Assembly (NCBI GenBank): GCA_937998875.1
Contig: CALLBO010000020.1
Span: 62,001 to 126,000, forward strand
DNA length: 64,000 bases
Source: an uncultured Granulosicoccaceae bacterium
Lineage (GTDB): Bacteria; Pseudomonadota; Gammaproteobacteria; Granulosicoccales; Granulosicoccaceae
Reading direction: 5' to 3'
Part shown: positions 597 to 37,881 of the stretch, in pieces
Numbering within the stretch: the stretch's first letter is position 1
How the letters are laid out: each line of letters starts with the position of its first letter
Translations under genes and position numbers: made by a program
Notes under the pieces: generated by a model
Database searches by the model: none
Told to the model about the DNA's origin: nothing
What the model saw: only the letters and a program-made list of their open reading frames with translations

Positions 597-1538
597 TTAG
601 TCCATCAAGCTCTTGCCAACCATGCGCAGCAGAAAAATCGCTACGATGTTAGCTAGTATTACTGCAAAAATACCTGCAGCACTGGCGGCACCGATATTGT
701 TCGTGGTGAACTCACCAATGAGATAAGGCAAATTTTTATTGCCGTTGCCACGGCTTACGATTTCAATCTCTGCATATAGTGACAAATGAAAGATCGACTG
801 AATCATCACTACAATTGCGATGGGGCGAGCCAGATGCGGGAGCGTTAGATTGCGAAACCGCGACCAGGCACTTGCACCATCAAGAATCGCCGCTTCTTTT
901 TGCTGCTCGTCTTCCGACTGCAGGGAAGTCATGAAAATCAATACAGCAAACGGTGTCCACTGCCATGTCACCATCATGATGACAGCATAAGCAGACGTTT
1001 GCGTCGCACGAAAGGAAACAGGCTCAAACTCGGGCCACATCGAGAAAAACGCACCGAGCACCGGAAACTCCCGCAGGCCTGCGATCACATTGTTAATGCC
1101 CCCAACTGCTAATCCGTTTAATCCGAGAACCGGATCGAGGATCATATTTATCCAAAGCACTGCATTAACGGCCGGCATGACAAAGAACGGTGAGATAAGC
1201 AGTACACGAACAATCCCGCGGCCAGGAAAAGTACGATTAACCAGAATGGCAAGTGCCAAACCCAAAATGACGGTAAAGATGAGAATACAAACAACAATGA
1301 ACAAACTGTTCTGCACTGCGAGCCAGAAATCTCTGGCACTGAATAAAACATATTCGTAGTTGCCGAACCCACGCCAGTTACTGATGCTGGGGGTGGTCCA
1401 TTCGGGTCTACGGGTGCTGTTCAGTACGTATCGTATGAAAGAGAAATAAAGTGTCATGCTCAATGGTACGAGCATCCACAGCAGTAAAAGCACAACTGCC
1501 GGAGTCTGTAGTAGGCGGGGTATTCTTCTTTTTGACAT
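597..1538 (-). CDS. Polyol/sugar ABC transporter permease, MalF/SmoF type
   Basis: 313-residue inner-membrane permease, the first of two in this importer. A short basic N-terminus (MSKRRIPRLL) is followed by a membrane span at about residues 13-35 and roughly five more spans. The EAA loop is at about residues 215-235 (EAAILDGASAWSRFRNLTLP), the contact point for the nucleotide-binding subunit. It lies about 200 bp downstream of the substrate-binding protein gene, separated by a strong hairpin, and 2 bp upstream of the next permease. This order (binding protein, permease, permease) is that of the SmoEFG/MtlEFG polyol transporters. The ATPase gene is not in the window and may lie beyond the left edge. 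Confidence 0.9.
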   Translation of the reverse strand: MSKRRIPRLLQTPAVVLLLLWMLVPLSMTLYFSFIRYVLNSTRRPEWTTPSISNWRGFGNYEYVLFSARDFWLAVQNSLFIVVCILIFTVILGLALAILVNRTFPGRGIVRVLLISPFFVMPAVNAVLWINMILDPVLGLNGLAVGGINNVIAGLREFPVLGAFFSMWPEFEPVSFRATQTSAYAVIMMVTWQWTPFAVLIFMTSLQSEDEQQKEAAILDGASAWSRFRNLTLPHLARPIAIVVMIQSIFHLSLYAEIEIVSRGNGNKNLPYLIGEFTTNNIGAASAAGIFAVILANIVAIFLLRMVGKSLMD

Positions 1539-1686
1539 GGTTCAAGTACCCTACAGAGTTCGTGTTGAGCGCTTAAAACAGCCTACGGCAAGGCAGATCG
1601 TATCAGGCGCGAAATCTACAAAGAAGACTAGACAACATACCGGGAAATACAACATCGCTAATCGACGTTACTGCTTTAGCGATATT

Positions 1687-1721
1687 TAAAAAAAGGCCCG
1701 GCGGAATACCACCGGGCCTTT
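1687..1721 (-). terminator. Intrinsic terminator/attenuator after the binding-protein gene
   Basis: On the minus strand, a 10-bp perfect stem (AAAGGCCCGG paired with CCGGGCCTTT, arms at 1712-1721 and 1692-1701) is followed by an unbroken run of T. It sits just after the stop of the binding-protein gene and before the permease genes. This placement commonly lets the binding protein be made in excess over the membrane subunits, by partial termination or by 3'-end protection of its mRNA. Confidence 0.8.
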
Positions 1722-1745
1722 CGATTACTACAGCTTCTACCTGAC

Positions 1746-3032
1746 TTAGTAGTAGCCTGCTTCCCGCATGATAGCGTCAGCAGCTGATTGCGCAGCAGCA
1801 AGTGCCTCGTCAACAGATTTTGCACCTGAAAGGGCTGCAGACATTTCCTGACCAAACGCACCACCAATCTCCTGGAATTCAGGGATAGCAGCAAATTGAA
1901 CGCCAGTATATGGCTTCAGCTCAGTTGCTTCTGGAGCAGCTGATTCGATAGCAGCCATTTCAGCAGCAGCGAAGCCTGCAACTTCCTGGAACTCCGGAAG
2001 TGCGTAAGTTGAAGCACGTTGACCAGTTGGTACAGAACCCCAACCGAAGTCCGGGTGGTTACCTACAGCCTGAACGTAGTCTTTAGAAGTAGCCCACTCG
2101 ATGAACTTCTGAGACTCTTCAGCATTTGGTGATCCCGCAGGGATCGCCAATGCCCAGGCCCACAGCCAGTTAGCACCGACAGGGTTACCAGCATTTGGAG
2201 ACTGTGCGTAGGCTACACCGTCAACTTCAAGGAAAGAAGCAGCGATAGTCGCATCGATCCACAGACCACATTTGCCTTCGTTATAAAGTGCAAGGATCTC
2301 GTTGAATGAGTTACCTTCAGAACCAGGAGGTCCGTAAGTGCTCAGGAAATCAACATAGAAATCAGCTGCTGCTTTCCACTCTGGAGAGTCAAGCTGTGGC
2401 TTCATGTCTTTGTCGAACCAGCGAGCACCGAAAGAGTTTGCAACAGTAGTGATGAAAGCACCGTTGTCACCCCAACCCGGCTTACCACGCAGACAAGCAC
2501 CGTAAACGCCGTTGTCTGGATCGTGGATAGCAGCAGCAGCAGCTTTCACGTTATCCCAGGAGTCGTTGTCAGCGATGGTAACACCAGCAGCGTCCGTGAG
2601 GTCTTTACGGTACATAACCATTGAAGATTCACCGTAGAAAGGTGCTGCGTACAGAGTACCTTCGTGTGACAATCCAGCACGCATTGCGGGAAGGATGTCT
2701 TCAACGTCGTAGTCATCACCAAACTCGAGCGGCTCGATCCAGCCAGCAGCGCCCCAGATAGGTGCTTCGTACATACCGATGTTGATAATGTCGTACTGAC
2801 CACCACCAGTTGCGGTGTCAGAAGTTACCTGCTCGCGAAGTACGCCTTCTTCCAGCGATACCCAGTTAAGCTTCACACCAGTTTCTTCAGTGTAGGCTTC
2901 AGCAACTTTCTGCATGTTGATCATGTGACCGTTATTAACGGTCGCGATAGTCAGCTCTTGTGCAGAAGCAGCAGTTGTCGCAGAGGCGACCCCTATTGCC
3001 AGTGCCAGAGCCGTTTTACGAATTGAAAACAT
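1746..3032 (-). CDS. Polyol/sugar-alcohol ABC transporter substrate-binding protein (SmoE-like)
   Basis: 428-residue periplasmic extracellular solute-binding protein of family 1. An N-terminal signal peptide (basic MFSIRKTALALAIG, cleavage after about residue 24 at ASA-QE) precedes the start of the mature domain, ELTIATVNNG. This start, and the segment QYDIINIGMYEAPIWGAAGW, resemble the mannitol/sorbitol-binding SmoE family more than maltose-binding proteins. A clear Shine-Dalgarno (GAGGAG) lies about 7 bp before the ATG. It is the first gene of the transporter unit, followed by a strong hairpin and then two permeases. It would deliver a hexitol or related sugar alcohol to the permeases. The exact substrate is not provable from sequence; polyol is the best estimate. 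Confidence 0.88.
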   Translation of the reverse strand: MFSIRKTALALAIGVASATTAASAQELTIATVNNGHMINMQKVAEAYTEETGVKLNWVSLEEGVLREQVTSDTATGGGQYDIINIGMYEAPIWGAAGWIEPLEFGDDYDVEDILPAMRAGLSHEGTLYAAPFYGESSMVMYRKDLTDAAGVTIADNDSWDNVKAAAAAIHDPDNGVYGACLRGKPGWGDNGAFITTVANSFGARWFDKDMKPQLDSPEWKAAADFYVDFLSTYGPPGSEGNSFNEILALYNEGKCGLWIDATIAASFLEVDGVAYAQSPNAGNPVGANWLWAWALAIPAGSPNAEESQKFIEWATSKDYVQAVGNHPDFGWGSVPTGQRASTYALPEFQEVAGFAAAEMAAIESAAPEATELKPYTGVQFAAIPEFQEIGGAFGQEMSAALSGAKSVDEALAAAQSAADAIMREAGYY

Positions 3033-7860: not shown

Positions 7861-9825
7861 TTAACTGGTACCAGACTTTTTATCTTGTGTTTTTTTAGCC
7901 CGTGCTTTCTTTTTTGATGCTTTCTTCTTTGAACGTTTCTTAAACTTTTTCTTACTCACAGGGTTCTTCGCAGTTACGCCACGCAATGAATTTACTGACC
8001 CTGAACTGCTATTTGCAATCAGCTTGCGCAACTGAACTTGCAATGGTTGCATAAAATCACCATAGCTCGATTCGCGATTACTGATTGCATTAAGCGTCGA
8101 CTCCCAGTGCGCCGTCATATCCGGCAAGCTGGCTTCTTCCGGCAGTGCTTTAATCAATCCACGACCCGCATCTGTATCATGTATCTGCTTCCCATTCCGG
8201 GTAAGGAAACCGCGTCTGAACAGCAACTCAATAATGCCCGCACGGGTCGCCTCAGTACCAAGTCCGTCAGTATCTTTAAGTATTTTTCGGATGTCTGCAG
8301 AGGATACATAGCGGGAAATACCTGTCATCGCGGAAAGCAGCGTTGCATCTGTAAAATAGGGAGGTGGAGTCGTATTCTTCTCTATCAATTCTCCCTGCTC
8401 GCAGTGGAGCGATTGTCCCTTCTTTAAAGGTGGTAACGTTTTTTCGGAGTCACTACCTTTGTCACTGCGAAAAAGAACCCGCCACCCCTCCTTTATAATA
8501 GTTTTTGCGGTGGCTACGAATAAGCCGCCCTCAACAACAATTTCAACGCGCGTGTCTGCATATTCATGTACGGGGTAGAACTGTGCAATGTATTGCCTGG
8601 CGACCAAACCGTAGACTTGCTGCTCCTGCTTTAAAAGAGACTGAAGATTTGCCTTTCTCTGCGTTGGAATAATGGCATGATGAGCGGTGACTTTTTTATC
8701 ATTCCATGCGGGTGATTTGATACTGCTATCTGCCGCATCAACGATTTCGGCAAACGACGAATCGTTGCTTTTTATAACCCCAAGTATCGCCTTACCTTCT
8801 CTAAAGTGACCTTGCGGCAAATAGCGACAATCAGAACGCGGATAGGTTATGAGCTTATGTTTTTCATACAGCGACTGACAGGTAGACAATACGTTTTGCG
8901 CATTGAGTCCGTACTTACGAGCTGCATCAATCTGCAAAATACTCAGACTGTACGGCAATGGCTGAGACTGCTTTTTGTTTTTCTTTTCGTACTTCTTAAT
9001 CTCTGCAGGCTTGTCGGTGATTCGGGCAACAACATTCTCTGCAAGACCCTTATGTAGAACCCGCCGCATATCATCCATGTAGGGTTCACAGGCTTCACTT
9101 GGGCGCCAGTTTCCAGTGAACTTTTCACCATTCCCGGTTAGCAGATGCGCTTTGACCTCAAAGAACGGTTTGGAAACGAAATTTTCGATCTCTTCACAGC
9201 GACGCACCACCAACCCGAGCACCGGCGTCTGCACCCTTCCCACAGATAAGACACCGTCGTAGCCTACCTGACGGCCTTGAATGGTGTAGGCACGCGTCAT
9301 GTTAATACCGTATAACCAGTCAGCTCTTGAGCGCGCAAGCGCAGACGACGACAGTGGGGCAAAGTTTTTATTCAGGTCAAGATTTGCCAGTGCACGTTGC
9401 ACAGCTGCGGGATTAAGATCATTAATTAAAAGACGCTGTATTTCCGCTTTCTTTTTCTGACTGACTTTTAAATAGGCAAATAACTGATCTACCAGCAACT
9501 GCCCCTCGCGATCCGGATCACCGGCATGGACAAGCTCGTCTGCCTCCTTGACCAACTTGCGCAGCACAGCCAGCTGTTGTTTAGATTCTTTTTTCGGTTG
9601 CAGCTTCCATTCATCCGGCACAATCGGCAGGTGCTGCATACGCCACGACTTGTACTCGGGGTTATACATGTGCGGCTCGGCCTGCTCGAGCAGATGCCCG
9701 ATGCACCAACTCACGCAATCACCATTTGAAGTTTTGATAAACCCGTCGCCACGCTGGTGCGTGCCGGGCAGCACAGCTGCAATGGCACGACCGAGGCTGG
9801 GTTTCTCAGCGATATACAACTTCAT
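7861..9825 (-). CDS. topB: DNA topoisomerase III
   Basis: 654-residue type IA topoisomerase that passes single strands and decatenates replication or recombination intermediates. The N-terminal Toprim domain starts MKLYIAEKPSLGRAIAAVLP and contains the acidic DPDREGQLLVDQ motif at about residues 103-114. The active-site Tyr is in LITYPRSDCRYLP (about residue 325). The tail (about residues 620-654) is unusually rich in Lys/Ser repeats (KKKFKKRSKKKASKKKARAK) and lacks the Cys4 zinc fingers of topoisomerase I, typical of TopB. Two near-perfect direct repeats lie 5 bp upstream of the start codon. Identity is certain. Confidence 0.97.
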   Translation of the reverse strand: MKLYIAEKPSLGRAIAAVLPGTHQRGDGFIKTSNGDCVSWCIGHLLEQAEPHMYNPEYKSWRMQHLPIVPDEWKLQPKKESKQQLAVLRKLVKEADELVHAGDPDREGQLLVDQLFAYLKVSQKKKAEIQRLLINDLNPAAVQRALANLDLNKNFAPLSSSALARSRADWLYGINMTRAYTIQGRQVGYDGVLSVGRVQTPVLGLVVRRCEEIENFVSKPFFEVKAHLLTGNGEKFTGNWRPSEACEPYMDDMRRVLHKGLAENVVARITDKPAEIKKYEKKNKKQSQPLPYSLSILQIDAARKYGLNAQNVLSTCQSLYEKHKLITYPRSDCRYLPQGHFREGKAILGVIKSNDSSFAEIVDAADSSIKSPAWNDKKVTAHHAIIPTQRKANLQSLLKQEQQVYGLVARQYIAQFYPVHEYADTRVEIVVEGGLFVATAKTIIKEGWRVLFRSDKGSDSEKTLPPLKKGQSLHCEQGELIEKNTTPPPYFTDATLLSAMTGISRYVSSADIRKILKDTDGLGTEATRAGIIELLFRRGFLTRNGKQIHDTDAGRGLIKALPEEASLPDMTAHWESTLNAISNRESSYGDFMQPLQVQLRKLIANSSSGSVNSLRGVTAKNPVSKKKFKKRSKKKASKKKARAKKTQDKKSGTS

Positions 9826-27723: not shown

Positions 27724-29613
<1,890 letters not shown>

Positions 29614-29623
29614 GATTATTCTC

Positions 29624-30343
29624 CTACTTGACCAAGCCATGTTCAATGACATTGGCGTTGCTCAAATCGACCAACGCTGTATAAAGTGGCAACTCACCAC
29701 CACCCGGCCCGAATGTTACGTACATCACACGCTGCCCGTAAAAATGCTGTGCGTCGCTTTGTACGTTGCTTTGCGATGGAAACGCGAGCATTGCCGTTGG
29801 CTGTAACCCGCCAACATCAAAACCGCCGTTGGTAAGAGCAGAACTGGCAAGTGCAATCGCATCTTCCTGCTCCTGAGGGTGTTCCATGGGCTGATATGCC
29901 GAGGCTGCTGACACCTCACTAATGACCGAGCCGCCGTCACCCAGAGAAACCACAATCGTTTCATCGGTTGCATAGTTGTAAAAAACAATACTGGCGACCG
30001 TATCGCTTTTACTGTCGCTGAGAGACGCTTCAATTTCACGATAGTCAGCGCCTAGGCTCGATCGCACCTGCGGGTTATTCATAATCGAGCCACGTGCAGC
30101 ATCGAGCACACCTGCAAGTACGCCCTGCCTCGCACTCGATGGATAAGGTTCGGCATTAGTCATACCTACAGGTTGTGGAGGCCACACACCGTCTACAGGA
30201 CCCGTATGCGGTGTATGTGAGGCAGGTGAATTTTGCACCACATCATCGCCTTCCGTGATCAGCAGACTGCCCGAATCACTACAGCCTGTTAGCAATAGCG
30301 GTGCGGAAATCGCACACACCAGTAATCTATACTTGATGGACAT
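29624..30343 (-). CDS. Lipoprotein resembling the N-terminal domain of copper amine oxidases
   Basis: 239 residues from ATG 30343, chosen because a signal peptide ([21 protein letters not shown]) with lipobox LLTGC begins there; GGAGAG lies 10 bp upstream. After a Ser/Pro-rich spacer, residues about 60-239 carry [20 protein letters not shown], then [20 protein letters not shown], and end [16 protein letters not shown]. These recall the N2/N3 domains of copper amine oxidases, which precede the catalytic domain in ordinary enzymes. Its stop lies 10 bp before the start of the catalytic-like gene, so the two form an operon encoding a split oxidase-like complex. This reading is inferred from pattern similarity. 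Confidence 0.6.
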
Positions 30344-32531: not shown

Positions 32532-32954
32532 TTACTCGTTGTCTAGAATTCTCGGGCGAAGCGTGTCGAGTGCATAGCCAGCTGCTGCCGCTGTACGCAG
32601 GATATCGTCAGCTGGCTGCTTACCTGCCTGACTCAACGCCCATAGGACAGTGCAGCGGGTACCTGATCGGCAATACGCAAGAATCGGCTTTGGCAGATCG
32701 GTTAGGTTATCTTCAAATTCATCAACATCAACATCTCTGATTTCTTTGTTACTCACTGGTTGAAACTGTACTGTCATACCCGCTTCAATAGCCAGCTTTT
32801 CGATATCTGCAAACAAAGGCTGATCCGCACCACCTTCTTTATCGGGACGATTACACAGCAAAGACTTAAAATTTGCACTGATATCAGCGATATCAACAGG
32901 CGTAAGTTGCGGGGCAACCGATAGTTCATCAGTAAGCTTTCGGATATCGACCAT
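32532..32954 (-). CDS. DUF442/TIGR01244-type phosphatase or sulfur transferase
   Basis: 140 residues from ATG 32954. Motif: PILAYCRSGTRCTVLWAL, a Cys-x5-Arg phosphatase loop shared by beta-lactamase-hydrolase-like (Blh) proteins. Also seen is IRKLTDELSVAPQLTPVDI at the start. The longer frame to 33206 has no support. Related proteins are linked to sulfide oxidation and to biofilm-related rhodanese fusions. It runs divergent from the GFA gene. Confidence 0.82.
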   Translation of the reverse strand: MVDIRKLTDELSVAPQLTPVDIADISANFKSLLCNRPDKEGGADQPLFADIEKLAIEAGMTVQFQPVSNKEIRDVDVDEFEDNLTDLPKPILAYCRSGTRCTVLWALSQAGKQPADDILRTAAAAGYALDTLRPRILDNE

Positions 32955-33086
32955 CAAGTGTCTCTGTTTGGTTAAGGATGAGGTTAAGTCTATGGACACG
33001 TGACTAATGTCGCAAGGAATCCTGCTTGTTCCCGTGACGGGAATGCTGCAGACTTCCGTCTTCACCAAGCGGAAAATCGAAATATA

Positions 33087-33503
33087 ATGAGCAAAGTAAC
33101 CGGAAAGTGCCTTTGTGGCGCTGTGAGCTACTCGATCGAGGGCGAACCCTTGCGAATGGCTCAATGTCACTGTAAGGGATGCCAGCGAGCATCCGGTACG
33201 GGGCATATGTCATTAGCGTTTTTCAAAGAAGATCAAGTGAGTATCAACGGAGACTTCGCAGAATATTCATCCAAAGCTGACAGCGGCAACGACAACATCC
33301 GCGGATTTTGCTCTACCTGCGGCGCGCGCCTGTTTGGCCGCAATTCTGCCAGAGCAGGAATTATGGCCGTGGCGGTCGGGTGTGCCGATGACAACAACTG
33401 GTTTGCACCGCAAGCAGTGGTTTACAACAAAGACAAACCGCAGTGGGACTGCATGGCAGATGATTTGCCAACCTTCGATGAAATGCCGCCAGCGCCCAAG
33501 TAA
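33087..33503 (+). CDS. GFA family protein (glutathione-dependent formaldehyde-activating fold)
   Basis: 138 residues from ATG 33087. Zinc-site motifs: GKCLCGAVSYSIEG (about 6-19), QCHCKGCQRASGTGH (about 26-40) and FCSTCGARLFG (about 74-84). The fold binds zinc, and some members condense glutathione with formaldehyde; most have unknown roles. The longer upstream frame (from 33000) has no motif support. Confidence 0.88.
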   Translation: MSKVTGKCLCGAVSYSIEGEPLRMAQCHCKGCQRASGTGHMSLAFFKEDQVSINGDFAEYSSKADSGNDNIRGFCSTCGARLFGRNSARAGIMAVAVGCADDNNWFAPQAVVYNKDKPQWDCMADDLPTFDEMPPAPK

Positions 33504-33723: not shown

Positions 33724-34614
33724 ATGAGTCAACTACCCAATAATTTGAACCGTCGCCACCCCCTCTATTTGGCAGTCGCAGGCGGTATTGCCGCCACCAG
33801 TCTGGCTCTGGCAGGCTGTGACAGCAGCACTACCAAATCCACCGATGCTAATCCTACCGCGGTAAAAAAAGAAATCGCATCGGCAGCGTGCAATCCTTGT
33901 GCTGCGAAAGCCTGTAATCCGTGCAATCCGTGCGCTGCTAAAGCCTGCAACCCTTGCAACCCGTGTGCTGCTAAAGCCTGTAACCCTTGCAACCCTTGTG
34001 CTGCCAGCGCATGTAATCCATGCAACCCGTGTGCGGCAGGTAGTTTGCAGGCTTCTGATTTCATTCGTCCGGCAGGAGCAGACTTCGATGCTGCGGCTGC
34101 AGCTTCAATGGTAGCCAAAGGCGAACAGCTATGGAACGACACGTCGCTCAGCACCAATGGTCTGGCGTGTGCTTCGTGCCACGTTGGCGGAGCCCTGCTG
34201 AATGCCACTTTCGCTCAGCCGTATCCGCATGAGATAGCAATGCCTACACAGCAAGCCGGCGTTGGCGCAATTGACATCGATGAGATGGTTAATTTCTGCA
34301 TGCTCGCACCAATGCAGGCGCAGGCACTTCCATGGGGTTCTGAAGAACTACTTGCGCTTAGCGGCTACGCGCTCGAATTGCAGGCTGGTTTCAACCCGTG
34401 CGCCGCGAAAGCTGGTGGTAACCCATGCAATCCTTGTAACCCATGCAATCCGTGCAACCCTTGTGCTGCGAAAAACCCATGCAACCCATGTAATCCATGT
34501 GCTGCAAAGGCATGTAATCCGTGCAACCCTTGTAATCCATGCAATCCATGTGCTGCAAAGAATCCATGCAACCCTTGCAATCCATGCAACCCGTGTGCAG
34601 CAAAGACCAACTAG
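33724..34614 (+). CDS. Lipoprotein c-type cytochrome with NPC-repeat Cys blocks
   Basis: 296 residues. An RR-containing signal with lipobox LALAGC (Cys about 32) is followed by two low-complexity blocks built on Asn-Pro-Cys. The first (about 56-106) is one CNPCAAK then four [10 protein letters not shown] units. The second (about 224-294) has runs of three to five NPC units separated by AAK. Together they hold about 32 Cys. Between them lies a cytochrome c-like domain with heme motif CASCH (149-153) and possible axial Met in [14 protein letters not shown]. Export and outer-membrane or periplasmic anchoring are inferred. No biochemical function for the repeats is known to me; each contains Cys-x-Pro, the core of the formylglycine-enzyme target. 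The next gene encodes that enzyme family. RBS CCGGAG lies 10 bp before the ATG. Confidence 0.85.
33889..34041 (+). repeat. First NPC-repeat block in DNA
   Basis: Imperfect tandem units of about 33 bp (TGCAACCCGTGTGCTGCTAA-type, ending in a GCNAAAGCC) encode four CNPCNPCAA units plus a shorter first one. Codon third positions vary between units, so the protein repeat is conserved better than the DNA. Confidence 0.85.
34393..34605 (+). repeat. Second NPC-repeat block in DNA
   Basis: Nine-bp AAYCCNTGY units in runs of about three to five, separated by GCNGCNAAR, make up the C-terminal third of the gene. The number of units differs between runs, as expected of slippage. Its 3' end is also the 5' part of the following reading frame. 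Confidence 0.85.
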
Positions 34615-35492
34615 TCACACTAATATCAGCAGTAACCAAAGAGCCCGCCAGACGGGCTCTTTTTTTTACTGTGGCCATTCTGCAACTGGCTGGGTGTGTG
34701 CACGCCGAACCACTCTCTCGCCCCGAGACTGTTTCAATCCCTGCAGGCGAGTTCATCATGGGCTCAACCAAAGCTGAACGGGAGTACGCATACCAACTGG
34801 ATGAAGCAGCTTATGGCCACTCGCGCACCAGAACCGGTAAGTGGTACGACTCAGAAAGAAACAGTACTGCAGTTACTACCGATGCATTCGAGATTACCGT
34901 TGCACCAATAACGACAGTACAATACGCTGCCTTTATCAATGCGACAAATCACCCCACCCCGACTGTTACCGAACAAACCTGGAAAAGCTACGGATTGGTT
35001 CATCCATATAGCCGAACACGGCGGCACGCCTGGACGGACAATGATCCTCCCCAGGGTCGCGAAAACCATCCCGTGGTACTCGTCAGCTATCAAGACGCAA
35101 ATGCGTATGCAGAATGGCTGTCAGAAACACTGAGGGAACATTGGCGCCTGCCCACCGAAGCCGAATGGGAGAAGGCGGTACGCGGGGTCGATGGGCGCTA
35201 CTTCCCCTGGGGTAACCGCTTCGAAAGTGATAAGTTAAACAGCCACGATGCCGGACCGTTCGACACAACTGAAACCGGCGCTCGATCATCGCCTGGCCCT
35301 TTCGGCATAATCGACGGCGCCGGCCAGGTATTCGAATGGATTTCGACGGACGAACAAGCAAAAAGAGCGTGGGTTAAAGGAGGCTCTTGGGATGACAAGG
35401 GCTGTGGTGTTTGTCGGCCAGCTGCAAGACACGGCAGGCCAAAAAACCTCAAACATATTCTGATTGGATTTAGACTGGTCAAAGTAAAATGA
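34584..35492 (+). CDS. Formylglycine-generating enzyme-family (SUMF1/FGE) lipoprotein-like protein
   Basis: About 302 residues from the ATG at 34584; the start is uncertain because in-frame ATGs also occur at 34539 and 34566 and a GTG at 34671. Apparent signal region: ...[19 protein letters not shown], with LAGC lipobox-like. Family motifs: [68 protein letters not shown] and IGFRLVK. Catalytic Cys: aligned to human FGE, only one of the two active-site Cys (in [11 protein letters not shown]) seems in place, so oxidase activity may differ. The 5' end overlaps the repeat gene in another frame. The next gene overlaps its stop by 4 bp. Confidence 0.8.
34638..34667 (+). terminator. Perfect intrinsic terminator of the NPC-repeat gene
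   Basis: A 10-bp stem (AAAGAGCCCG / CGGGCTCTTT), 5-nt loop, and eight T in a row, 24 bp after the stop of the repeat gene. It lies inside the FGE-family reading frame, where it encodes [10 protein letters not shown]. It should cut most transcription coming from the repeat gene before it enters the FGE gene, unless relieved. Confidence 0.93.
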
Positions 35493-36247
35493 CACAACTC
35501 TCCGTTAAAGCACAATATTCACCCAACCTGAAAGATCAACTCGCGGCGTTGCCGGACCACAGGCTACATGAGATGGTGACCGCAGGTGACAAAATAAATA
35601 ATTGCTACCGGCTTTTGCAAAAAAACGAGAAATTCGGCAACGTTGTGCGGGAAGTATTGCGAGATCAAGGCACATTCTACGAGCTTGAACACTACCCTCA
35701 GGGTGATGTGCACGACAAAGATTCACACTCGCAGTATTTTTATCATGCCCACCGCGGCATAGACGGCGAAAACGGTCACTTTCACACCTTTCTGCGCGCG
35801 AAAGGAATGCCCCGTAAATTTAAGCCGGCCCCTTACAATGGTGAAGTTAAGTGGCCCGAAGGGGATGATGCACTAAGCCATCTGATCGCTGTATCAATGA
35901 ACCCGAAGGGCTATCCGATTGGACTGTTCTCAACCAATAGATGGGTAACAGGTGAAACATGGTACAAGGCAGAAGATGTCATTTCCATGCTTGATCACTT
36001 CAACATGGATTTGTTATACCCGTCATGGCCAGTGAACATCTGGATTACTGAAACGATTCGACTTTTCAGACCGCAAATTGAAGAACTACTAATCCAGCGC
36101 GATGCATCGGTTGATAAGTGGCGAGCAAAATATACAGACAAAGATGTCTATGAGGACCGCGAACTGGAAGTTACCAGTGAGTATCTCATTGATGTGGATA
36201 GACAGCTGGATGCGGTACATAAAGAGTTAAAATCGCGGATGCACTAA
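35489..36247 (+). CDS. His-rich protein of unknown function (DUF6969-like)
   Basis: 252 residues, cytoplasmic (no signal or membrane span). Distinctive motif at about residues 70-100: YFYHAHRGIDGENGHFHTFL, dense in His and preceded by ELEHYPQGDV; then HLIAVSMNPKGYPIGLFSTN and WVTGETWY. The His cluster suggests a metal site. I recall similar proteins annotated as DUF6969 but cannot confirm this here. Its ATG overlaps the FGE stop by 4 bp (ATGA), a sign of coupled translation, so it is likely a working partner of the FGE-family protein. Confidence 0.75.
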   Translation: MTQLSVKAQYSPNLKDQLAALPDHRLHEMVTAGDKINNCYRLLQKNEKFGNVVREVLRDQGTFYELEHYPQGDVHDKDSHSQYFYHAHRGIDGENGHFHTFLRAKGMPRKFKPAPYNGEVKWPEGDDALSHLIAVSMNPKGYPIGLFSTNRWVTGETWYKAEDVISMLDHFNMDLLYPSWPVNIWITETIRLFRPQIEELLIQRDASVDKWRAKYTDKDVYEDRELEVTSEYLIDVDRQLDAVHKELKSRMH

Positions 36248-36681: not shown

Positions 36682-37881
36682 ATGAATGCCGAAGAGCTCA
36701 GATCAAAGCAGGATCGTGAAATCGCCCGTCAGCTAATGGAAGTCAAAGATGTTAAACGCATAAACGAGATGATCGAGAAACGCGAAGAAGAAGGACCAAT
36801 GGGCACTCGCCGCAGGCTGCTCGCAACCTCGGTACGCCTGAGCCGCGGCATGGCACCATGGCTTCACGAAATGGCAGACGACTGCATTGAAAAACTCGGT
36901 GTGGAAATTCCGACAGAACTATATGTGTATTCAAGCCCTACCTATAATGCTGCCTGTGTGAAGCCTGAGGACGGTCGCTTATTCATTATGTTCTCTTCCA
37001 GCTTATTGGAAGCTTTTGAGGGCTCGGAACTTAAGTTCGTTATGGGTCATGAGCTGGGTCATTATTTATACGGTCACCACGATATCCCCATCGGCTATCT
37101 GCTAAAGGGTAATCCGCGTCCAAGCCCGAAGCTTGCACTGCAATTGACTACCTGGTCGCGCTATGCGGAAATCTCCGCAGACAGAGCCGGTGCGCACTGC
37201 GCTAAAGACCCGGAGGGTGTTGCGCGATCACTGTTTAAACTTGCATCCGGTCTCAGCAGCAAGCTGGTCAAATTCAATATCGACGAGTTCATGCAACAAG
37301 TCGATGAAATGCAAATCGAGGATGCAGAACCGGGACAGGGAGCACCACCGGAAGACTGGTTCATGACACATCCGTTCAGCCCGCTGCGGGTACGTGCCTT
37401 GCGGCTTTATGATTCATCAGTACTGGCCAAAAAAGATGGCAACAGCATCGACGAGTTGGAGGCTGGAGTGCAGGTACTGATGACAATCATGGAGCCAAGT
37501 TATCTGGAAGGCCGCACTGACAACGCAGAAAACATGCGCCGTTTGTTGTTTGCAGCTGCTCTCTCGGTAGCCAACGCTAATGGTGATATCTCCGAAAAAG
37601 AGATCGCTGTGTTCGAAAAGTTCTTCGGTAAAAGGACATTCTCTGATGACCTCAACCTGGAACGCCTCGCCGACGACCTGAAAGATCGCATTGAACAGGT
37701 TAAAGCATCAACCACTACTGCGCAGCGTATGCAAATAGTGAGAGACCTTTGCACGGTGGCCAACGCAGACAAGCAAGTCAGCAACCCTGAGTTGAAAGTA
37801 ATTACGTCAATTGCAGAGGCTCTGGACGTACCGTCCCACTTCGTAAATCAGGCTGCGACCTTGGAAGTCAAACTCGACTAG
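36682..37881 (+). CDS. M48-family metallopeptidase fused to a TerB-like domain
   Basis: 399 residues. The peptidase part has the zinc motif MGHELGHYLYGHH (His, Glu and His, about 121-133) and the downstream third ligand in YAEISADRAGAHCAKDPEG (about 159-177). The C-terminal part (about 275-399) contains RRLLFAAALSVANANGDISE and TTTAQRMQIVRDLCTVANAD, which match a TerB/DUF533-type helical domain with acidic loop. No signal peptide or membrane span is visible, unlike HtpX or BepA, so it looks soluble. The architecture (peptidase followed by TerB-like domain) is less common. Role: probably protein quality control, target unknown. Confidence 0.82.
   Translation: MNAEELRSKQDREIARQLMEVKDVKRINEMIEKREEEGPMGTRRRLLATSVRLSRGMAPWLHEMADDCIEKLGVEIPTELYVYSSPTYNAACVKPEDGRLFIMFSSSLLEAFEGSELKFVMGHELGHYLYGHHDIPIGYLLKGNPRPSPKLALQLTTWSRYAEISADRAGAHCAKDPEGVARSLFKLASGLSSKLVKFNIDEFMQQVDEMQIEDAEPGQGAPPEDWFMTHPFSPLRVRALRLYDSSVLAKKDGNSIDELEAGVQVLMTIMEPSYLEGRTDNAENMRRLLFAAALSVANANGDISEKEIAVFEKFFGKRTFSDDLNLERLADDLKDRIEQVKASTTTAQRMQIVRDLCTVANADKQVSNPELKVITSIAEALDVPSHFVNQAATLEVKLD

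Follow-up and report, generated by a model that had tools for sequence, protein, structure and literature searches.

An exported Cys-repeat protein and its DUF6969 partner: a candidate Cys-handling system with an accessory FGE-family protein

Introduction

Which neighbouring gene serves an exported lipoprotein that is built largely of Cys repeats, and what could such repeats do outside the cytoplasm? The question is raised by a stretch of 64,000 nucleotides (the window) from an uncultured Granulosicoccaceae bacterium (assembly GCA_937998875.1, contig CALLBO010000020.1, positions 62,001 to 126,000). Three genes lie there on the plus strand, at 33724-34614, approx. 34659-35492 and 35489-36247. 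They are real and were correctly placed by an initial annotation, which saw a candidate Cys-modification or metal system around a protein of the FGE/SUMF1 family (FGE, formylglycine-generating enzyme), with a Cys-rich cytochrome lipoprotein as possible substrate and a His-rich protein, identified here as DUF6969, as partner. Here we report that the core consists of the repeat protein and DUF6969, and that the FGE-family protein is an accessory. A Cys or metal system is still plausible, but not one centred on FGE. The exported Cys-repeat protein and DUF6969 almost certainly form a true functional pair, and the pair as such is new, as no known system compared here joins repeat proteins with DUF6969.

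Results

The lipoprotein carries Asn-Pro-Cys arrays around one heme c domain

The two members of the pair have the following features in the window.

33724-34614, plus strand: heme lipoprotein with Asn-Pro-Cys (NPC) repeats, 296 amino acids, 36 Cys, 26 NPC units
33886-34041, plus strand: N-terminal (A)CNPC(NPC)AAK array of the lipoprotein
34042-34398, plus strand: SoxA/TsdA-type cytochrome c domain, with CASCH at approx. 34168-34182 and the codon of Cys192 at 34297-34299
34399-34611, plus strand: C-terminal NPC array of the lipoprotein
35489-36247, plus strand: DUF6969 (PF22308) protein, the core partner, 252 amino acids, no signal peptide seen by eye

Two arrays flank a single heme c domain with one CxxCH site, behind a lipobox (ALAGC) recognised by eye. 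NPC repeats around heme c had been described correctly; the count of about 32 Cys in these repeats had not, as the protein has 36 Cys and 26 of them are in NPC units. When the residues were shuffled 2000 times, the mean number of NPC units was 0.5 and the maximum 5. The units are encoded by 10 different 9-base spellings, and the repeat is therefore kept by selection at the protein level. The shuffles, the synonymous codons and the far-region control of the DUF6969 loci described below ruled out chance or a low-complexity artefact. No Arg occurs in either array, as had been pointed out, and the FGE substrate motif CxPxR is thus absent there.

The heme domain matched the SoxA/TsdA cytochrome c family PF21342 (E 1e-6, 29.1 bits against the Pfam gathering cut-off of 27); its match to CCP_MauG stayed under the cut-off of that family. 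Cys192 is invariant in 18/18 homologues and aligns with Cys96 of TsdA, in an alignment that is weak when taken alone (E 0.78). Cys96 is described, in the available part of one report, as an axial heme ligand whose mutation abolishes activity (PMC6879331). A structure model of the heme domain computed from two sequences reached a pLDDT of 41 and was not used.

DUF6969 has a conserved His/Glu cluster

The partner matched PF22308 with an E value of 7e-79 (264.5 bits, gathering score 27) and no other Pfam family at E 0.01. Its AlphaFold2 model was confident (pLDDT 95, pTM 0.92). Foldseek found nothing significant in the PDB (best E 0.82, TM score at most approx. 0.2 among the matches listed) or among viral structures (best E 0.13), and a profile search of PDB sequences gave no match (best E 0.41). 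H86, H88, E94, H97, H99 and H131 were invariant in 51 aligned sequences, in which the motif had partly been selected for; the same five His and Glu94 were also invariant in 17 more diverse sequences, almost all of them found by the Pfam profile. These residues lie on three neighbouring strands of the model (81-91, 94-103 and 129-137), and the window protein has Asn in place of His95 of the EHGHFH motif. The cluster is a plausible candidate for a metal site, judging from conservation and the order of the strands. Open-access papers yielded nothing on DUF6969, nor on the NPC motif together with cysteine-rich proteins or cytochrome P460. Among the papers listed for the repeat motifs, two treat Clostridioides spore proteins and the others are unrelated by title. 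Viral contigs were searched for relatives of DUF6969 with a negative result, and a virus-borne system was rejected.

Repeat cytochromes occur only with DUF6969 in the order

For the 48 genomes of the order, heme-domain matches with E 7e-36 or better were counted as NPC-cytochromes, and the weaker ones, starting at E 1e-6, were assigned to other cytochromes. NPC-cytochromes were present in 12 genomes, the window's included, and DUF6969 in 15, among them all of these 12. None of the 33 genomes without DUF6969 had an NPC-cytochrome (Fisher 6.5e-9, uncorrected for kinship and with standalone NPC peptides left out of the search there). In the other three DUF6969 genomes NPC repeats adjoin DUF6969 as well, in G006 as an array at the end of a contig and in G031 and G034 as a standalone peptide immediately ahead of the gene.

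DUF6969 adjoined the NPC-cytochrome in 11/11 loci outside the window, FGE in 8/11. The roles assigned earlier, FGE as the core enzyme and the His-rich protein as a partner, could thus not be upheld. DUF6969 is the constant member of the system, and its pairing with exported Cys-repeat genes has good support, although not every DUF6969 locus shows it. Over the order FGE (E <1e-60) was found in 12/48 genomes, namely in 10 of the 12 with an NPC-cytochrome, in G006 and in one without DUF6969. Locus L245 retains of the FGE gene a 35-codon open fragment with the signature, beside an intact NPC-DUF6969 pair.

The length of the NPC arrays varied among close relatives. Four contigs (those of L016, L020, L022 and L243) end within such arrays, and short-read assemblies may for this reason often lose the NPC gene. 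Further copies of DUF6969 in G014 (L246) and G006 (L247) adjoin a gene that by eye resembles nitronate monooxygenase.

Cys-repeat genes lie close to DUF6969 in wider surveys

DUF6969 was found in 22 of 229 genomes sampled from the class, and 20 loci outside the window were examined; a 21st (G137), a short locus, received a coarse screen that showed nothing. Additionally, a DUF6969 alignment was run against 84,980 species genomes, where at least 581 stretches proved to be related. Of these the 80 best were retained, which are nearest to the query and share EHGHFH by selection; 77 of the 80 carry the label of Pseudomonadota or of one of its subgroups. The contigs of L170 and L117 are labelled Phormidium willei and Mesoflavibacter, while their DUF6969 genes resemble those of Alphaproteobacteria, and they are probably contamination or mislabelled bins. 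The 20 and 80 loci together form the set of 100 used below, fetched with at most approx. 8 kb on either side of DUF6969.

An automatic test called open reading frames (ORFs) with a hydrophobic start and at least two x-Pro-Cys close together that were not Arg-rich. It found 48 such ORFs less than 2.6 kb from DUF6969 and none beyond 4 kb (549 vs 375 kb scanned), and was positive in 43/100 loci (13/20 of the class, 30/80 of the wide scan). Reading by hand added 11, which brought the loci with a Cys-repeat gene to 54/100 (17/20 and 37/80, respectively); the class loci L090, L091 and L105 have none. A first filter of at least three repeats had missed the peptides of two or three units in L099, L103, L139 and L150, which were found by reading the gaps. 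An exported precursor with repeated Cys is present at these DUF6969 loci, its signal sequence being judged by hydrophobicity and eye.

A model of the NPC peptide matched 6/22 genomes with DUF6969 and 3/207 others (Fisher 2.8e-5); one of the latter three matches has internal stop codons and is probably false. The second is an NPC-cytochrome (L219), and the third, in L220 (G123, 1477-1977, minus strand), is a helix-hairpin-helix protein whose start looks like a signal sequence and whose tail consists of NPCSMK repeats; no DUF6969 match was obtained in that genome.

The strict CNPCNPC pattern was confined, within the class sample, to the window's own genome. The other types there were NPCAAK proteins, of which some carry the same heme domain and some do not, GGGYGGGNPCAPGNPCAP, GCCGCC, CAATCAATC, and a type in which a shared start (such as AIAVDHTRHRLPEP) is followed by SPCGL/SPCSL repeats. 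Over all DUF6969 loci the repeats were of many types, among them NPCAAK, RGGNPCAPS, SPCGL, GCC and NPC arrays on cytochrome P460. The motif most commonly shared is x-Pro-Cys and not C-x-P-x-R, and NPCAAK and SPCGL units do not even contain the C-x-P on which the proposal of an FGE substrate had been based. Six repeat peptides that were scanned matched no NCBIfam model. PF21342 scored 27.6 bits in L093 and 40.1 in L177; the protein of L219 reached 20.0, below the cut-off of 27, and passes CCP_MauG instead. Arrays are fused to cytochrome P460 in L118, L169, L194 and others (Pfam placed one of two just above and the other just below the cut-off) and to a DSP/BLH-type phosphatase in L144. Rhizobial examples include a plasmid of Sinorhizobium medicae with genes for a sulfurtransferase, YeeE/YedE, a PC-repeat peptide and DUF6969, and one of Ciceribacter thiooxidans with a PC-repeat peptide before DUF6969. 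In L087 a thioredoxin-like protein (Pfam; 8822-9193, minus strand) lies between the NPC-cytochrome gene and DUF6969.

Helpers differ between loci

FGE homologues were present in 30/100 DUF6969 loci (one as a fragment); for 28 of the 29 that are named, 83-316 bases separate their end from the DUF6969 match that follows. YeeE/YedE and rhodanese were each found in 23/100 loci; FGE and YeeE occurred together in a single locus. A Cys-repeat gene lay within 2.6 kb in all 23 YeeE loci and in 16 of the 30 FGE loci. Seen from the 54 loci with a Cys-repeat gene, FGE is present in 16 and absent from 38, and on this count it was rejected as the core. The co-occurrence proposed earlier thus holds in part: the trio recurs across genomes, but FGE is not its constant element. 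The initial annotation had itself asked how often repeat homologues occur without FGE neighbours, and by that test FGE is not needed, because only these 16 repeat-bearing loci have it.

The NCBIfam model closest to the YeeE/YedE neighbours was that of selenium YedE/FdhT, below its cut-off. The host genome of the window carries SoxY and YeeE-family genes on one contig, and the sulfur oxidiser Halothiobacillus is among the hosts of the DUF6969 system. The MNIO enzyme family PF05114 had no match in the host genome, which is 92% complete, and an MNIO helper was rejected. In L228, on a plasmid of Azospirillum lipoferum, DUF6969 stands after an Mla lipid-transport cluster and before DUF2336, and no Cys-repeat gene was seen.

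The FGE-family gene and other neighbours in the window

approx. 34659-35492, plus strand (frame open from 34539): FGE/SUMF1-family protein, accessory member, lipobox LAGC
34638-34662, plus strand: terminator-like hairpin and T run between the lipoprotein and FGE genes
32532-33206, minus strand: BLH-type phosphatase domain protein, matched beside the NPC gene in 5/11 relatives (some of the contigs stop short there)
33084-33503, plus strand: GFA-family (PF04828) protein, matched in 4/11 relatives

The family assignment of the middle gene was borne out by a match to FGE-sulfatase PF03781 (E about 5e-40, 138 bits, gathering score 23.3), and the 4-bp ATGA overlap joining it to the DUF6969 gene is present as described. 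Downstream of the lipoprotein stop, the first ATG, GTG or TTG of the FGE frame is a GTG at 34671; as this is too late for a signal peptide, the start may lie within the lipoprotein gene (ATG at 34584). The subfamily looks exported by eye, unlike DUF6969. Its signature GGSWDDxGCG[VI]CRP was found in 39/39 sequences with CGxCRP invariant; in CGxC the two Cys may be spaced differently from the copper-binding pair that is usual in FGE.

The hairpin overlaps the signal-peptide codons of FGE. A hairpin followed by a T run was also predicted by folding in 5/11 relatives and recognised by eye in a sixth (L045), while terminator-like sites in the scan as a whole were no more frequent than in shuffles. 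It could permit excess production of the repeat protein.

Two further genes of the window were noted, an M48 peptidase-TerB fusion downstream of DUF6969 (36682-37881, matched in 6/11 close relatives) and a protein that looks exported and whose domains are joined by a long linker of Glu-Pro repeats (27724-29652, minus strand).

Discussion

Among the systems we compared, HvfA and HvfB offer the closest working analogy for the repeat protein and DUF6969. According to the accessible portions of two papers, HvfA is an exported peptide with repeated Cys whose gene lies near that of an iron enzyme oxidising those Cys, and HvfBC prefers HvfA that still bears its signal sequence (PMC13419390; PMC12668002). 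HvfA/HvfB(C) and the captophorins (MNIO, PF05114) share with our loci an exported repeated-Cys peptide encoded near a putative enzyme. The differences are that DUF6969 does not belong to the MNIO family, matching only PF22308 and no solved structure, that the repeat motif is x-Pro-Cys, that the host genome has no MNIO match, and that the modification here is inferred. The heme domain resembles the His-Cys heme enzymes SoxAX and TsdA by its PF21342 match and its invariant Cys; unlike them, the window protein has a single heme between Cys arrays.

The core of the system has two parts. The first is an exported protein or peptide with repeated [N/S/A]-Pro-Cys, sometimes with other Cys, which either follows a signal peptide on its own or is joined to a heme domain. 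The second, DUF6969, is a soluble and apparently cytosolic protein with its conserved His/Glu cluster, which may bind metal and act on the repeat Cys before Sec export, as HvfB does on HvfA, the signal sequence serving as leader. In the envelope, the finished arrays would handle sulfane sulfur or thiols, or else a thiophilic metal. Helpers would be interchangeable: a SoxA/TsdA-like or P460 heme, a periplasmic FGE-like protein with CxxC, or rhodanese with a YeeE/YedE transporter. The pairing, the repeat motif, the conserved residues and the neighbours are read directly from the sequences; location, metal binding, Cys modification and the sulfur role are deductions. That DUF6969 modifies or loads the repeat Cys is a proposal with even chances in our judgement, and a sulfur or thiol role of the arrays appears equally balanced. 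The complete reading, in which a cytosolic DUF6969 metalloprotein modifies or protects the Cys of exported arrays active in thiol or sulfur chemistry of the envelope, falls somewhat short of an even chance.

Several observations weigh against this reading. No Cys-repeat gene was seen within 2.6 kb in 46/100 DUF6969 loci (some on truncated contigs), and 30/100, of which 13 are Azospirillum, have none of four partner types. The second, more distant DUF6969 copies of L246 and L247 have no Cys-repeat gene before them, and two genomes have NPC genes with no DUF6969 match (L220 and L219, the latter with an NPC-cytochrome). GCC and CAATC repeats do not contain Pro-Cys. Of 44 named loci first set aside as repeat-free, the NPC model found NPC genes in only 16 genomes; these 16 were all also seen as ORFs, and L139, L150 and L158 among the 44 later proved to have a two-unit repeat. 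The loci are not independent: Thalassospira accounts for 11/37 of the positive named loci, and a single strain supplied the two contigs L177 and L183. The automatic test was written after the repeats had been seen. The far-region test of the repeats is the only control of neighbour rates, so that the sulfur link stands without one, and this link is strong only within the YeeE group.

An alternative with some weight, which we still consider unlikely, is that the arrays are unmodified periplasmic carriers or buffers of sulfane sulfur, which the His/Cys heme domain or rhodanese would fill and YeeE/YedE would empty, with DUF6969 as a cytosolic sensor or a chaperone keeping Cys reduced. The YeeE and rhodanese neighbours, the SoxA/TsdA-type domain with its invariant Cys and the SoxY/YeeE genes of the host are in line with it, as is the import role of SoxT/YeeE in a sulfur oxidiser described in the consulted section of PMC11582611. 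YeeE/YedE, which recurs beside the SPCGL and RGGNPCAPS types and recalls sulfur import by YeeE/YedE-TsuA-SoxT, is not among the neighbours in the window. Since the FGE and YeeE groups overlap in one locus only, sulfur import is not general, and a mere chaperone does not easily explain the conserved His/Glu site. Somewhat less probable again is the binding of a thiophilic metal (copper, zinc, mercury) by arrays similar to metallothionein or captophorins; DUF6969 would then be a metal chaperone or an enzyme that modifies them. The Cys density of the lipoprotein and the His-rich DUF6969 agree with this, and a precedent exists in HvfA, a Cys-repeat peptide that is exported and, in the extract of PMC13419390, is modified so that it binds copper; but no copper or zinc resistance gene was recognised by eye in the recurrent neighbour clusters, which were not annotated one by one, and the missing MNIO match in the host speaks against it as well.

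That the FGE-like protein itself converts or oxidises the repeat Cys in the periplasm, as first suggested, now seems improbable. The window protein is a family member of formylglycine-generating enzyme (SUMF1, PF03781), its subfamily recurs beside DUF6969 and NPC genes and appears exported with an invariant CGxCRP, and the genuine enzyme uses a copper site with two Cys to oxidise peptidyl-Cys, as stated in the part seen of PMC12123546. It belongs, however, to an exported bacterial subfamily; the substrate motif of the known enzyme, given as CxPxR in the passages available (PMC4505483; PMC12123546), does not occur in the repeats, most repeat loci have no FGE, and the L245 fragment stands beside an intact pair. 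A structural role as a disulfide-cross-linked envelope protein is very improbable. Its model is CdeC of the C. difficile exosporium, which contains a 6-NPC repeat and self-assembles according to the portion of PMC7677010 consulted; CdeC is a spore protein of a Gram-positive, and convergence is assumed. A structural protein would not be expected to have a conserved partner of its own, sulfur-related neighbours or fusions to heme domains.

Returning to the reading of DUF6969 as a Cys-modifying or -protecting partner, we tentatively suggest, at slightly less strength than for that reading, that DUF6969 founds a new class of peptide-maturing metalloenzymes of unseen fold. They would modify the Cys of Pro-Cys repeats of Sec-exported proteins across Pseudomonadota, and bacteria would combine the resulting periplasmic arrays of polythiols or sulfur with various helpers from heme, FGE-like or sulfur-transport families. 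DUF6969, a widespread domain, thereby gains a candidate role and a candidate substrate class. If true, Cys outside the cell would have a further, new route to modification or sulfur loading, and a set of Cys-repeat genes, some of them fused to heme domains, would be explained.

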